A DNA stretch of 43,866 nt from Actinomycetes bacterium (lineage in GTDB: Bacteria > Actinomycetota > Actinomycetes > S36-B12 > GCA-2699445). The notes under the pieces were generated by a model, which had not been told where the DNA came from, did no database searches, and saw only the letters and a list, made by a program, of their open reading frames with translations. A program made the translations under genes and the position numbers. How positions within the stretch are numbered: the first letter of the stretch is position 1; the number at the start of each line of letters is the position of its first letter. Below, in pieces: positions 12,941-25,816 of the stretch. Location of the stretch: assembly GCA_022599915.1 (NCBI GenBank), contig JAHZLH010000061.1:1-43866 (forward strand), given 5' to 3'.

Positions 12941-13126
12941 CGCCACAAGCCAAGACCGGTCACCCAGCCCGAACGCAGGTCATGCGCCGGGAAGAGACCA
13001 GCAGACCAGCCTTAAGCGTTCCACAACCTCACCGAAACCACCCCTGTCCCCTGGGTGATCGACGCCCTACCCGCGACCGCTAGCCCCGACCTAGCGTCGT
13101 CTTCGTTCACACCGAGGAGGGACACG

Positions 13127-13753
13127 ATGGCGCTGGTGGCCTGGCGACGGTTAGTAGTACTGCTCGCGGCAGCTGTGGTGCTGGCAGGAATGCGGCTGAT
13201 CGGTGAGCCCTCCCCCACCGCGGCGTATGAGTTCCTGGGCTGTAAGTTCGCTGGCCGATCCCCGGTTGTGCACTATCGGGCCGAGCAACTCGGCGAATAC
13301 CAATCAGTAGTGCATGCTGCTGCCCGCGCCTGGAATCGTGCCGCCCGACTACCCATCAGGTTTACCCGCCGAGCACCGACCCGCCCGGGAGTTGCTCGTG
13401 TCGTTATCCGCCGCACCGAAAGCTTGCTAGACGTGTGGGCGTGGATCGGACGACCGGACGCGCGCCCGCCACGGTGTCTGGGCAGCCCGACGCGGACCTA
13501 TCGGGGCAACCGAACCAGCATCTACCTGAACCACACCGCATTGCAGACGCTCACGCCGCAGCAGCGCGAACTTGTGGTGATTCACGACCTCGGACATGCT
13601 CTCGGCCTGGGTCACGAGCGAGGTAACTGTCAACGGGTGCAGTCCGTGATGGTGCAAGGCCCGGCCAAATGGACTTGTGGCTGGTCGGGGCAACCACCCT
13701 GGCGCGATGATCGCCGCGGAGTGCGACGGTTGTACGCGAGCAGCCGCACCTAG
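13127..13753 (+). CDS. Exported matrixin-like metalloprotease with Asp in place of catalytic Glu
   Basis: 208 residues. A signal peptide (MALVAWRRLVVLLAAAVVLAG) precedes a small zinc-peptidase domain. The zinc motif reads HDLGHALGLGH, which is the matrixin HExxHxxGxxH pattern with the general-base Glu replaced by Asp (codon GAC). Four Cys suggest disulphides outside the cell. GAGGAGG at 13114-13120 supports the ATG, and a TAGCGT -10 candidate is at 13092-13097. The substitution may lower or abolish proteolysis while keeping zinc binding. It is only distantly related to the two larger proteases at 24785 and 43241. Confidence 0.8.
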   Translation: MALVAWRRLVVLLAAAVVLAGMRLIGEPSPTAAYEFLGCKFAGRSPVVHYRAEQLGEYQSVVHAAARAWNRAARLPIRFTRRAPTRPGVARVVIRRTESLLDVWAWIGRPDARPPRCLGSPTRTYRGNRTSIYLNHTALQTLTPQQRELVVIHDLGHALGLGHERGNCQRVQSVMVQGPAKWTCGWSGQPPWRDDRRGVRRLYASSRT

Positions 13754-17836: not shown

Positions 17837-18595
17837 CTAACCAGTCACCGGCACCGGCTCCGGTCGCTTGGCGGTTACGCCGTCACCAGAACTTCTACCC
17901 AGCAACCGCCTACCCAGCCACGGTGCGAAATGTTGGGCGGTCCATTGCACATCACCGGCTAGACGCGCTAGCAGCCTAGGGTCAGTGCTCGCCGGCAACG
18001 GCTGCCGCCAGTTCGGCGCTGCCACGCCCACCGCTTCCAGCGCCGCCCAGGCAACTCGTTGATGACCAGCAGCGTTGAGATGAAGTCGATCGTCGGACCA
18101 CAACCGCGGGTCGTCGAAAGTGTCGCTGTGCCACAAGTCGAGCACGTAGCAGTCATATGCGTTACCGACGCGTAGGATTTCGTCGCGGAACTCCGCCATT
18201 CGCTCCTGAACGACCCCCAACAATCGCGAGCGGCGGATGGGCTGGCCAAAGGTAATCATCAAAACGTCGCAGCCTTGCGCGCGAGCACGGCCCACTCCGC
18301 CCTCCAGCGCATCCGCGGTGGCCAATAGCGACCACGAGGGCCGCAATACATCGTTGACCCCGCCGACCACGCTGATGAGATCCGGTTGCAGCGCCAAGGC
18401 CTCGGGTACTTGCTCGATCAGAATGGACCTAATCCGCCGGCCCCGAACGGCAAGGTTCGCATAGTCGAGTTCATGATCATTCTCCGCCAGTCCGGCGGCA
18501 AACCGATCCGCCCAGCCACGGAGCCTTCCATCGCGCGCTTCATCACCGACGCCTTCGGTGAAGGAATCACCGACTGCAACATATCGCTGCCACAT
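17837..18595 (-). CDS. SGNH/GDSL-family hydrolase
   Basis: 252 residues. Block I is YVAVGDSFTEGVGDE (nucleophile Ser), the Asn block is GGVNDVL, and the Asp/His block is DDRLHLNAAGH. All four SGNH catalytic positions are therefore present. There is no signal peptide, so it probably acts inside the cell as an esterase or lysophospholipase. AAGGGAAAGG before the ATG at 18595 supports that start over the longer frame. It ends nine bases from the DJ-1-like gene on the opposite strand. Confidence 0.87.
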   Translation of the reverse strand: MWQRYVAVGDSFTEGVGDEARDGRLRGWADRFAAGLAENDHELDYANLAVRGRRIRSILIEQVPEALALQPDLISVVGGVNDVLRPSWSLLATADALEGGVGRARAQGCDVLMITFGQPIRRSRLLGVVQERMAEFRDEILRVGNAYDCYVLDLWHSDTFDDPRLWSDDRLHLNAAGHQRVAWAALEAVGVAAPNWRQPLPASTDPRLLARLAGDVQWTAQHFAPWLGRRLLGRSSGDGVTAKRPEPVPVTG

Positions 18596-18708
18596 ACCTT
18601 TCCCTTCGACCGCGAAATCATCGTCCACTGTAGTCAGTACCGGATAGTGGTCCATCGTGGCCCCGACTCGATCACGGTTGTCCGGGTCGATATTGGCTGA
18701 CCACTCGT

Positions 18709-18720: not shown

Positions 18721-19767
18721 ATGACGAATCCGTATGGCGAAATGTCACCGGCTGCCCAGCGGGCAACGCTGCAGGCGATGGGCACCATTGCCACCATGAA
18801 TGGAACGCGCGAGCCCAAAGACCCCACCCGACGGATGATCGAATCAGCTGCGGTGCAGTTGTTCGGGCTCACGCCGGGTGATGTTGACTACGGACCCATC
18901 ACGCCAGCGGAACTCGCGGACGAACTCGGAGTCGAGGACCCGATCAGTTGGCTGATCGATCTGATGTCCTTGGTCCCGTTTGCCGATGAGGATCTGACAC
19001 CAGCCGAAGTCCAACTAGTCGATCAGTTCGCCGCCAGTCTTGGCGTCAAACCAGCGATTGTCACTGACTTGGATCGGTTGGCTGATGAACGGTACAAACG
19101 CTTCGTCTACGACCTGGCCCGCCGCGAAACCCCGATCTTCTTGGGGACCTCCAGCAAGTGGGCGGAACTACACGAGACTGCGAGAGAACTTCGACTGCAC
19201 TTCGGCGATAAGACCGCCACCGAGCGCTACGAACAACTGGCAGAACTACCGGCGGGAACCCTGGGTAATACCTTCTACCGCTTCTACGTCGATCGTGGTT
19301 TCGCTTTTCCCGGTCAGAAGGATTCACTGGGAGAGACGATTACTCGCCACGACTGCCTGCACATTCTGTCCGGCTGCAACACCGACGCAACGGGTGAGAT
19401 CAATGTGGCTGGCGTGGAAACTGGCATGGTTCCCGGCGGCGAAGGTTCGCAGATGCTGGTGGAAGTCATGACGTTGTTGCAGGATGATGTCTCGCTGAAG
19501 ATCGATGAGCGGGAAGGCATCTCGGCGCAAACCGGTCAAATGGATCCAGAAGCGATGGTGGCGAATATTCGCAAGGGGCTAGGGATGACCAAGAATCTGT
19601 TTTCCCACCAAGACTTTGACTTCTGGGGTGCCGTGCACCGGGACCTCGAGGACGTGCGCAATGAGGTGGGGCTCCAGCAAGTCGACGGAGACATCATTCC
19701 GCCACCAGCCAGTCAAACGACCCCGACAGCGAAGTCCGATGGAGATGCCACCAGCACCGCCACCTAG
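18721..19767 (+). CDS. Coq4-like protein with an N-terminal TerB-like helical region
   Basis: 348 residues. Residues 205-230 contain HDCLH followed by 11 residues and Glu, the zinc motif HDxxH(x11)E of Coq4. The context also matches: LPAGTLGNTFYRFYVDRG before it and LSGCNTDATGE inside it, against GTLG...F and L.G.NT...GE in Coq4. Coq4 acts in ubiquinone synthesis, where it has been linked to C1 decarboxylation and hydroxylation, yet actinobacteria normally use menaquinone, so the role here is open. Residues 35-135 are helical and acidic with a TerB-like look (FADEDLTPAEVQLVDQFAAS); this part is tentative. The C-terminal 25 residues are a Thr/Pro/Ser-rich tail. The start follows a leaderless -10 box. 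Confidence 0.75.
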   Translation: MTNPYGEMSPAAQRATLQAMGTIATMNGTREPKDPTRRMIESAAVQLFGLTPGDVDYGPITPAELADELGVEDPISWLIDLMSLVPFADEDLTPAEVQLVDQFAASLGVKPAIVTDLDRLADERYKRFVYDLARRETPIFLGTSSKWAELHETARELRLHFGDKTATERYEQLAELPAGTLGNTFYRFYVDRGFAFPGQKDSLGETITRHDCLHILSGCNTDATGEINVAGVETGMVPGGEGSQMLVEVMTLLQDDVSLKIDEREGISAQTGQMDPEAMVANIRKGLGMTKNLFSHQDFDFWGAVHRDLEDVRNEVGLQQVDGDIIPPPASQTTPTAKSDGDATSTAT

Positions 19768-22516: not shown

Positions 22517-22627
22517 ACTCGGGGGAACTGATCCTGGGCACCACCTCAAGTCGCATTCCGCCCGTAGCCTGGAGTCACCTTGGCGCGCAGTTGCTCTCGT
22601 AGCCACACCAACCCGAGGAGAGACATC

Positions 22628-23983
22628 ATGAGCATCGCCACAACTGCTGTTGCGGCCGGAACCATAGCGGCACTGTCAGGTGCACTAGCCATAACCCCGG
22701 CATCGGCTCACACTTCCGACACCACTTCTGCCACCGCGCCAAGCCACGACGCCACCGCAACCGTGACCGCCGCCGCGGCCGGCGCCCCAAGCAAAGTCCG
22801 CAAACTCAAAGTCCCCAGCAAGAAAATCACCACCAGCACAGCGAAGGCGAAGTGGAAGGCCCCGAGTGACAGCGGCGATGACAAGATCAAGCGCTACCAA
22901 CACCGGATCAAGAAGGACGGCGCTTGGGGTTCGTGGAAGTCCGTTAAACCTGGGAAACTGAAGACCGGGAACAGCGGTTGGTTCGCCAAGACCTGGCAGA
23001 AACTGGCCGCCGACAGTCGATACGTGGTCAAGGTACGTGCCAAGAATTCGATCGGATCAGGCAACGCCAAGAAAATCTCATTCACCACTCACAGCAGCGC
23101 TGCGGAGCCCAACAGTGGCTCCGGGGGCAGTTCTGGTGGCGGCTCCGACAGCAACAATCCGTTGTCGGAGTACTTCATCACTTCATCGTTGTGCAACGGT
23201 GCCGACTGCGAACAACTCCCCCTCGGCGATGACAAACTCACCACGTCGACTCCGGCGGTGGACAAGATGTACGCCTGCCAAGCTGGCAACCCTGCAGCAC
23301 CAGGAAGCGACACCTCAGCCATTACTTGGATCGATTTCACCAACAACACTTGGGACCTCACCAGTAAGCCGTGGCTGCCAGCCGGGTCACCGATGACGGG
23401 CAGTTACAACGAGTCGGTGACTAGCAGCAATCGCACCATCACCAGCACTGGTCTGCCCACCAGTGGTCAGATCGGGGACTGGCCAATGACGCAGTACCCG
23501 CTGCTCACCGCCATCGATCGCAACCCCGGGGTCCCCGCGGCACAGTCGTTCTCCTACACGATCCCCCGTTATCCCACGCCAGCAGCGAATCCTGGCTGCC
23601 TACCGATGGGTGCGATCGCGATTGGTACCAACGGTGTGGTGATCTACAACGCCGTTGATGCTCGTGGTGATGACGCGGTGGCTCATGAAATCGTCGACGT
23701 CTACGGTGGCCATCCGGCCCGAGACGAGTACCACTACCACTTCGTCTCCGAGCAACTGGAGAAGGACACTGCGCGACTAGGTGACGGCCACTCCGGCATC
23801 GTTGGTTACGCCCTCGACGGGTATCCGCTGTACGGCTACTACGGCAGCGGTGGGGTGCAAATGACCAACAGCGATCTAGATGAATGCCATGGCCACGACC
23901 ACGGCTCTCTCGGATATCACTATCACGCCACGTTGACCTACCCGTACACGCTGGGTTGCTTCCGCAGTCAAGCGATCGGCTAG
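22628..23983 (+). CDS. Exported FN3-YHYH domain protein
   Basis: 451 residues. A signal peptide (to PASA) is followed by a Thr/Ala-rich stretch and a fibronectin type III-like domain (about 60-160: KVRKLKVPSKK, KAKWKAPSDSGDDKI, KVRAKNSIGSGNAK). A Gly/Ser linker leads to a C-terminal YHYH domain. That domain carries DEYHYHF, DGYPLYGYYG, CHGHDHG and LGYHYHATL; the His clusters suggest metal binding (probably copper or zinc), but the function of the family is unknown. GAGGAG before ATGAGCATC fixes the start. The domain order suggests a surface-bound or secreted metal-binding protein. Confidence 0.87.
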   Translation: MSIATTAVAAGTIAALSGALAITPASAHTSDTTSATAPSHDATATVTAAAAGAPSKVRKLKVPSKKITTSTAKAKWKAPSDSGDDKIKRYQHRIKKDGAWGSWKSVKPGKLKTGNSGWFAKTWQKLAADSRYVVKVRAKNSIGSGNAKKISFTTHSSAAEPNSGSGGSSGGGSDSNNPLSEYFITSSLCNGADCEQLPLGDDKLTTSTPAVDKMYACQAGNPAAPGSDTSAITWIDFTNNTWDLTSKPWLPAGSPMTGSYNESVTSSNRTITSTGLPTSGQIGDWPMTQYPLLTAIDRNPGVPAAQSFSYTIPRYPTPAANPGCLPMGAIAIGTNGVVIYNAVDARGDDAVAHEIVDVYGGHPARDEYHYHFVSEQLEKDTARLGDGHSGIVGYALDGYPLYGYYGSGGVQMTNSDLDECHGHDHGSLGYHYHATLTYPYTLGCFRSQAIG

Positions 23984-24655: not shown

Positions 24656-24784
24656 TAGCCTGATGTCGGCAGCCAGCGACCGGCTTCAGAGTGAAATCGG
24701 GTGCGCTCACGGCTATCCACCTAAACTGATGCCACGGCGTATTGGCCAGTCCACACGAAAAACGTGAGCGACGAAAGGGTGGCG

Positions 24785-25816
24785 ATGTCAGACAAGTCAC
24801 CCCGAGACGAGTTCGACGAGGAACTGCCTGCTTTCGATGAGGACTGGGTGCGTTCGGCCGCCCACAGCGAGAGTAGTGCTGAAGAACGAGCGGACCGCTA
24901 CGCGCGAATTAGCGCCGGGCATCAGCGAGTACAAGACGGTGAGCAGTCGTGGCGCGGCGATAGCAAGCGCCAGCAACGCGGTGGCCTCAGCCTCGCCAGA
25001 TGGATACTGGCCATCGTCGGTATCTTGTTGCTGATCGTCTTCGTCGTGTGGCTCTTGGACTCGGGGCGGCCGCTAGTCGACGAGGGGCCAGTCGCCTACG
25101 TGGGTGGCGATGAGATCAACCAGTCACTGGAACAAAACACTGCGGTTCAACTAACGAAAGCTGACTTCCCCCCACCGGGCGCGGATGCCCAAGCCACCAG
25201 GATTCTGCCAGCGGTCCAGCCACCGGCCGTCCCCGGACAGTTCGACTTTCTTACCGAAGTTGGTGGTGAACCGGTCACCTACTCACCCTGCCGCCGACTG
25301 GAGGTAGTGGTGAATCCGCGAGGTGGTCCGCCGGGTTCCTATGAGGCGGTGGAGCAAACCGTCGAACAGATTCGCCAGGCCACCGGACTAGATATCACCG
25401 TGGCGGGTGAGACTGATGAAACCTACAGCAGCGGTCGGGATCCGGTACAGCCAGAGCGATACGGCAACAAGTGGGCGCCGATCCTGGTGACTTGGACAGA
25501 ATCTGCACTTGTTCCACAGTTCCAAGGCAGTGCTGTCGGCTTGGGTGGCAGCCTGCAGGTCACGACCAAGAAAGCCCCCGCCAGTTACGTGACCGGTGAG
25601 ATCACCCTCAATCGGGAGTACTTCAGCCAACCCACCACCGCTGGTCTACTCAAAGAAGTACTCCTGCACGAGTTCGGTCACGTTATCGGCCTTGGCCATG
25701 TCGACGATGCCGAGCAGGTAATGACAAGCGAGGCCCTGGGCGGGCGACCACTCGGCACCGGTGATCTCGCTGGCCTGGCACTGCTCGGCCAGGGCCCCTG
25801 CACGCCTAAGCTGTGA
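24785..25816 (+). CDS. Membrane-anchored matrixin-like metalloprotease
   Basis: 343 residues. An acidic cytosolic N-terminus of about 75 residues precedes one membrane helix (WILAIVGILLLIVFVVWLL), a Pro-rich spacer, and an extracellular zinc-peptidase domain with the full motif HEFGHVIGLGH. Two Cys (YSPCRR and GPCTP) probably form a disulphide. Its extracellular half is clearly paralogous to the gene at 43241 (shared PVTYS-C, QPERYG, APIL, LLHE). AAAGGG before the ATG at 24785 supports that start; a GTG at 24764 is possible. TAAACT at 24722-24727 could be its -10 box. Confidence 0.82.
   Translation: MSDKSPRDEFDEELPAFDEDWVRSAAHSESSAEERADRYARISAGHQRVQDGEQSWRGDSKRQQRGGLSLARWILAIVGILLLIVFVVWLLDSGRPLVDEGPVAYVGGDEINQSLEQNTAVQLTKADFPPPGADAQATRILPAVQPPAVPGQFDFLTEVGGEPVTYSPCRRLEVVVNPRGGPPGSYEAVEQTVEQIRQATGLDITVAGETDETYSSGRDPVQPERYGNKWAPILVTWTESALVPQFQGSAVGLGGSLQVTTKKAPASYVTGEITLNREYFSQPTTAGLLKEVLLHEFGHVIGLGHVDDAEQVMTSEALGGRPLGTGDLAGLALLGQGPCTPKL

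Follow-up and report, generated by a model that had tools for sequence, protein, structure and literature searches.

The gene described here, from the genome of an actinobacterium, may encode a metal protein of the Coq4 superfamily in which a TerB-like part precedes the Coq4-like domain. Our tentative explanation is that the family it belongs to consists of Coq4-type metal enzymes acting on a prenylated, non-ubiquinone substrate, with the reaction and the substrate being those that we infer below. We favor this explanation because of the homology to Coq4, the conservation of the metal ligands, the absence of the ubiquinone markers searched and the presence of an Ebo-type operon in one sub-clade. 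Coq4 is a ubiquinone-synthesis enzyme of animals, yeast and some bacteria. For a long time no reaction could be assigned to this Coq protein, and its metal and mechanism are still unsettled. The gene lies in the window, by which we mean the whole stretch of 43,866 nucleotides that was analysed, and its parts and its divergent neighbor are as follows.

18721..19767, + strand: coding sequence of 348 amino acids with a TerB-like N-terminal part and a Coq4-like C-terminal domain (ORF list, 42-member alignment, hhalign to Coq4 99.1%)
18907..19065, + strand: TerB-like segment, residues 63-115, with D89 and E96 at TerB spacing (hhalign against 16 TerB-domain sequences, 95.6%)
19231..19695, + strand: Coq4-like domain, residues 171-325 (hhalign against 11 Coq4 proteins, E 9.7e-19; PDB 3msq, 6e12)
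19348..19398, + strand: metal-ligand motif HDxxH-x11-E formed by H210, D211, H214 and E226 (sequence; conserved in 42/42, 42/42, 42/42 and 41/42)
17837..18655, - strand: GDSL/SGNH hydrolase, the divergent neighbor 65 bp off, its link to the Coq4-like gene putative (ORF list; Pfam PF13472, E 3.2e-30)

The Coq4-like domain and the TerB-like part

The HDxxH-x11-E motif occurs a single time in the window protein (residues 210-226), and a six-frame translation of the window contains no second copy. By itself it is improbable in this protein, but it is not decisive because shuffling the protein 200,000 times produced it 100 times. We accept the Coq4-type motif as real because it is conserved across the aligned relatives: G182, H210, D211 and H214 are invariant in all 42 rows of the family alignment (A1), and E226 is found in 41 of them. 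A chance motif is ruled out by this conservation together with the profile-profile homology to Coq4. The original prediction had singled out the motif and its GTLG...F and L.G.NT...GE surroundings. Both held up, the former with exact Coq4 spacing from residue 210, the latter in the alignments to the PDB chains 3msq and 6e12. The ligand spacing is the same as that of human COQ4 (H163-E179) and of Nostoc Alr8543 (H120/D121/H124/E136), as given in the excerpted text of PMC9774615.

The alignment was built from 50 matching ORFs, with the window protein standing for L002. Near-duplicate, short or contig-cut ORFs were omitted (L001, L022, both ORFs of L027, L030, L032, L036 and L043), and long ORFs were cut to the homologous part before aligning (L003, L009, L010, L018, L029 and L049). 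The resulting profile matches 3msq with an E-value of 2.7e-11 (profile positions 171-317) and 6e12 with an E-value of 6.9e-10 (profile positions 163-318). When the family is compared by hhalign to 11 Coq4 proteins, taken from cyanobacterial and sphingomonad plasmid records with L127 among the fetched loci left unaligned, the match of 99.1% covers residues 171-325. The N-terminal part of the family gives 0.3% against Coq4, and the N-terminal half of Coq4 is unmatched. For the single window protein the Coq4 signal is borderline, because it stays under the Pfam Coq4 (PF05019) cut-off (E 2.2e-4, 21.0 bits against 22.9) and a PF05019 search of its own genome gave no match at E<=0.001. An NCBIfam scan of the window protein gave no match either, and 25 of the 42 family members match PF05019 at E<=0.01. 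The comparison to PF05019, which had been proposed as a check on the prediction, thus bears out the homology at the level of the family profile but not for the window protein alone. AlphaFold2 models generated from two-sequence alignments had pLDDT values of 42.1 and 34.1, too poor for a comparison of folds.

A maximum-likelihood tree was built from 53 rows, and in it the clade of the 11 Coq4 proteins has a support of 100 and that of the 42 family rows a support of 74. A larger tree had 27 more rows from a mycobacteria-like genus, and here 59 family rows (58 genes, since L007 and L171 represent one gene) and one Coq4 row make up a clade with a support of 1.0; the support drops to 0.40 for the family rows by themselves. 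With one Coq4 row inside the clade and this low support, we regard the family as only tentatively separate from the most divergent Coq4. Compared to the Coq4 family (PF05019; human COQ4, Nostoc Alr8543 in 6e12, and 3msq), our family has the same ligands at the same spacing, the GxLG motif and homology through residue 325. It differs in the sub-threshold Pfam score of the window protein, the TerB-like N-terminal half and the lack of a ubiquinone context, and in the trees it groups apart from most Coq4.

The N-terminal 135 residues had been called TerB-like, and this is right as a distant relation, given the hhalign match, the negative controls and the few acidic residues that are kept family-wide. 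Residues 9-150, taken as a sub-alignment, match a TerB alignment of 16 rows (16 stop-free stretches out of 23) at 95.6% over 53 columns, and the control comparison of the C-terminal domain to TerB gives 0.3%. Support at the Pfam level is weak, as the window protein reaches an E-value of 0.011 and 16.4 bits against Pfam TerB (PF05099), below the cut-off of 24.4, and the TerB profile is matched in part only. D89 and E96 are putative metal-site acids, with their spacing taken from the TerB sequences of the hhalign comparison. They are invariant in the close clade of 4 members, whereas across the family D is found at position 89 in 6 of 42 rows and E at position 96 in 4 of 42.

Distribution of the family and quinone genes of the host

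From these comparisons the window protein appears to be a member of a distinct divergent family, often multicopy, and no oddity of one genome. Both the protein search and the family profile match 14 of 396 genomes of the phylum, whereas the Pfam Coq4 model matches just 2, and at the order level the window protein finds matches in 20 of 166 genomes. The distribution is patchy. Some genomes have three or four copies, the window's own genome has one, and all but one of the 42 aligned rows have an N-terminal part. The closest named relative, 75% identical, comes from a MAG labelled Candidatus Nanopelagicales. No relatives were found in the viral contigs or in the plasmids searched, and a viral or plasmid origin was rejected on these grounds.

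The host had been expected to make menaquinone and lack ubiquinone, and its genome (98.65% complete) agrees with this. Matches to menD (331.5 bits, cut-off 244.2) and menA (261.7 bits, cut-off 102.15) lie on the same contig, which is not the contig of the window gene. The search for COQ7 in this genome gave no match, and no UbiA equivalog was found above cut-off, with the best ubiA_proteo match scoring 79.3 against 275.45 bits. That match, a member of the UbiA superfamily, lies on contig C66, again a different contig from that of the window gene, and our guess from its neighbors is that it is a haem O synthase. Since COQ7 is absent, no UbiA passes the cut-off and both menD and menA are present, ubiquinone synthesis is unlikely in this genome as judged by the COQ7 and ubiA_proteo searches.

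Gene neighborhoods and an Ebo-type operon

Around the window gene are the divergent GDSL hydrolase, a Na/H exchanger and a protein of unknown kind that matches no Pfam family. Across the family loci no conserved neighbor was found, and among 89 neighbor proteins any one Pfam family has at most 3 members. These proteins were mostly taken from 151 candidates, with a few ORFs picked afresh and doubtful overlapping ORFs removed by eye; since neighbor ORFs were chosen by length, and in part also by codon GC, some of the calls may be wrong. Both the window gene and L102 have a GDSL hydrolase next to them, a promising lead that was rejected as the two hydrolases are only weakly alike (E 4e-4). An FMN-dependent dehydrogenase gene adjoins the family gene in L088, L105 and L111, three loci from two bacterial families. 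In both congeners a Rieske-type ferredoxin gene is directly upstream of the family gene (L072:5599-5958 and L073:1326-1736), and it is absent beside the window gene.

Elsewhere in the window, a small putative secreted protein (13055-13753, + strand) has the sequence HDLGHALGLGH, which we take to be a matrixin-like zinc motif with Asp replacing the usual catalytic Glu, and has no Pfam match at E<=1e-4. A matrixin-like protein with HEFGHVIGLGH (24764-25816, + strand) matches Pfam Peptidase_M10 with an E-value of 1.4e-5, and another protein (22580-23983, + strand) combines a fibronectin III part with a YHYH domain.

The genus of genome G150, which we consider mycobacteria-like because it carries PPE genes, has matches in 26 of 198 genomes at E<=1e-6. 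Of the loci taken from it, 17 have a TerB-Coq4 gene and 10 belong to a second type that is described below; G640/L198, which has fragments only, is counted in neither. All 17 TerB-Coq4 members, one of which is the same gene as a row of the family alignment, have the HDxxH-x11-E motif. At L171 the gene order is an INO1-like gene, an EboC-like prenyltransferase of the UbiA type (NF045897, 271.4 bits, cut-off 260), a TIM barrel fused to an EboA domain (138.7 bits, cut-off 50), a TatD-like gene, EboE (367.8 bits, cut-off 250), a type I phosphodiesterase and then the family gene, whose likely ATG is 38 bp past the phosphodiesterase stop. L181 has the same gene order with a gap of about 5 bp before the family gene, and at both loci the family gene is apparently the last gene of the operon. 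At L179 and L180 the ebo-protein matches lie some kb from the family gene on the opposite strand.

Ebo-type genes are thus found at 4 of the 17 loci, several other contigs being short, and this linkage probably stems from one or two evolutionary events. Among the 40 loci fetched outside the set from this genus, Ebo genes were found only at L082, which is the same gene as L171. Neither the window nor the two other stretches of its own genome that were searched, including the one with the ubiA_proteo match, had matches to the L171 Ebo proteins. The 53-row tree joins the window clade to the ebo-linked gene L007 with a support of 100. The larger tree places the ebo-linked genes together with other genes and gives a support of 0.854 to the clade that includes the window.

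The operons at L171 and L181 share the EboC-like, EboA-domain, EboE, TatD-like and phosphodiesterase genes with the Ebo (EDB) cluster, which was not found beside the window gene. In both (L171:7059-14082 and L181) an INO1-like (inositol-1-phosphate-synthase-like) gene is located where the sugar phosphate cyclase EboD is expected, unlike in the known Ebo cluster, and COQ4 was not found in the excerpted text of PMC5133447. The fusion of EboA to a TIM barrel, seen in both operons, is noted for Actinobacteria in that text, and an isoprenoid-cyclitol compound is proposed there as the product of the ebo pathway. An EboC homologue, Ubi-297, farnesylates 8-hydroxyquinoline-2-carboxylic acid (PMC9235831). 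In cyanobacteria the ebo genes have a role in moving the scytonemin precursor to the periplasm and not in its synthesis, according to the excerpt of PMC6282210, and this assignment to transport disfavors a simple biosynthetic role.

The second type in this genus (L188-L197, 10 loci) is Coq4 proper. One of the ten, L193, was scanned against PF05019 and scores 69.8 bits, and the other nine were assigned by clustering with it. As in the TerB-Coq4 family, the motif is HDxxH-x11-E and the lineage is expected to use menaquinone and to lack ubiquinone. Unlike that family, these proteins match only positions of about 206-332 of the family profile and have no match to the TerB-like part, form a clade of their own with a support of 1.0 and have a different conserved neighborhood. 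Most of the genes lie in a conserved place between a zinc-type alcohol dehydrogenase gene and a TetR regulator gene, with NUDIX, glycosyltransferase, acyltransferase and threonyl-tRNA synthetase-like genes nearby. A Coq4 annotation in Mycobacterium abscessus is also in print (PMC11925935, excerpt), so Coq4-like proteins in menaquinone-type actinobacteria are already known.

Accessory Coq4 proteins were also seen on sphingomonad plasmids (L124, L125 and L126, the last with two copies). Their neighbors in one cluster are genes for AtuA (acyclic terpene utilisation), an FAD oxidoreductase and a TonB receptor, and in the other clusters SDR, NTF2-like and sulfotransferase genes or a nitronate monooxygenase gene, suggesting that these accessory relatives act in catabolism.

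Possible functions of the family

In the explanation that we favor, the TerB-Coq4 protein would bind a metal together with an aromatic or cyclitol carboxylic acid that carries a prenyl group and is no ubiquinone precursor. The metal site would then replace or remove the ring carboxyl, as human COQ4 does as a C1 oxidative decarboxylase that swaps the C1 carboxyl for a hydroxyl in one step (PMC11495197), and the TerB-like part would probably dock the protein to partners or the membrane. The suggestion in the original prediction that the protein may modify another quinone or lipid gains genetic support in one sub-clade, where the family gene closes an Ebo-type operon that also encodes a UbiA-type prenyltransferase, and stays conjecture beyond that. 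Extending it to the window's species is a further step, as the pathway partners do not adjoin the window gene. The points against an enzyme of this kind are that the Ebo linkage is confined to 4 of 17 loci of one genus, with two of the four on the opposite strand several kb away, and that the neighbors are otherwise unconserved. A more specific version, which we consider unlikely, is an undescribed actinobacterial isoprenoid pathway in which the product of the Ebo-type UbiA prenyltransferase would be oxidatively decarboxylated by TerB-Coq4 and the window gene would be a dispersed single-copy version.

A scaffold role was once proposed for yeast Coq4, and a non-catalytic, lipid-binding scaffold is an alternative that we find doubtful but worth keeping in mind. 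The Coq4-like domain would hold a prenylated intermediate while the TerB-like part organises the partner enzymes; nearly every family row has an N-terminal part. The structure of Alr8543 with oleic acid and two Mg ions bound, and the failure of the synthome to form in a yeast Coq4 motif mutant, both in the excerpt of PMC9774615, are consistent with such a role. However, the near-complete conservation of the four ligands seems to exceed what a scaffold requires, and human COQ4 is catalytic (PMC11495197). A catabolic enzyme that helps to degrade isoprenoid or aromatic compounds we rate as distinctly unlikely for this family. The apparent catabolic clusters on the sphingomonad plasmids favor that reading for other lineages, and the FMN-dependent dehydrogenase genes next to three family genes, the several copies per genome and the patchy distribution would fit it as well, but the window gene has no clear catabolic neighbors and the ebo-linked copies point to biosynthesis.

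The two readings that stay within respiratory quinones fare less well. A menaquinone-modifying enzyme could draw on the menD and menA genes of the genome, yet we think it improbable, as the family occurs in so few genomes of the phylum, is multicopy in some and does not share a contig with menD and menA in the window's own genome. True ubiquinone synthesis in this actinobacterium has the Coq4 resemblance alone in its favor, is hardly credible and was rejected on the gene content for the two markers searched, COQ7 and ubiA_proteo.

No paper was found in the open literature by the terms Coq4 in actinobacteria or Coq4 with TerB. In these Coq4 searches we did not find the TerB-fused family and its Ebo link described. 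The occurrence of such a family in apparent menaquinone makers suggests that Coq4-type chemistry extends to other lipid-like molecules. The metal site is kept in bacteria that apparently lack ubiquinone, which would separate Coq4 chemistry from the ubiquinone pathway, and the position at the end of the Ebo operon, seen in one sub-clade, points to a class of substrates that can be tested. The Ebo link thereby joins two questions, namely which product the Ebo cluster yields and by what mechanism Coq4 acts.
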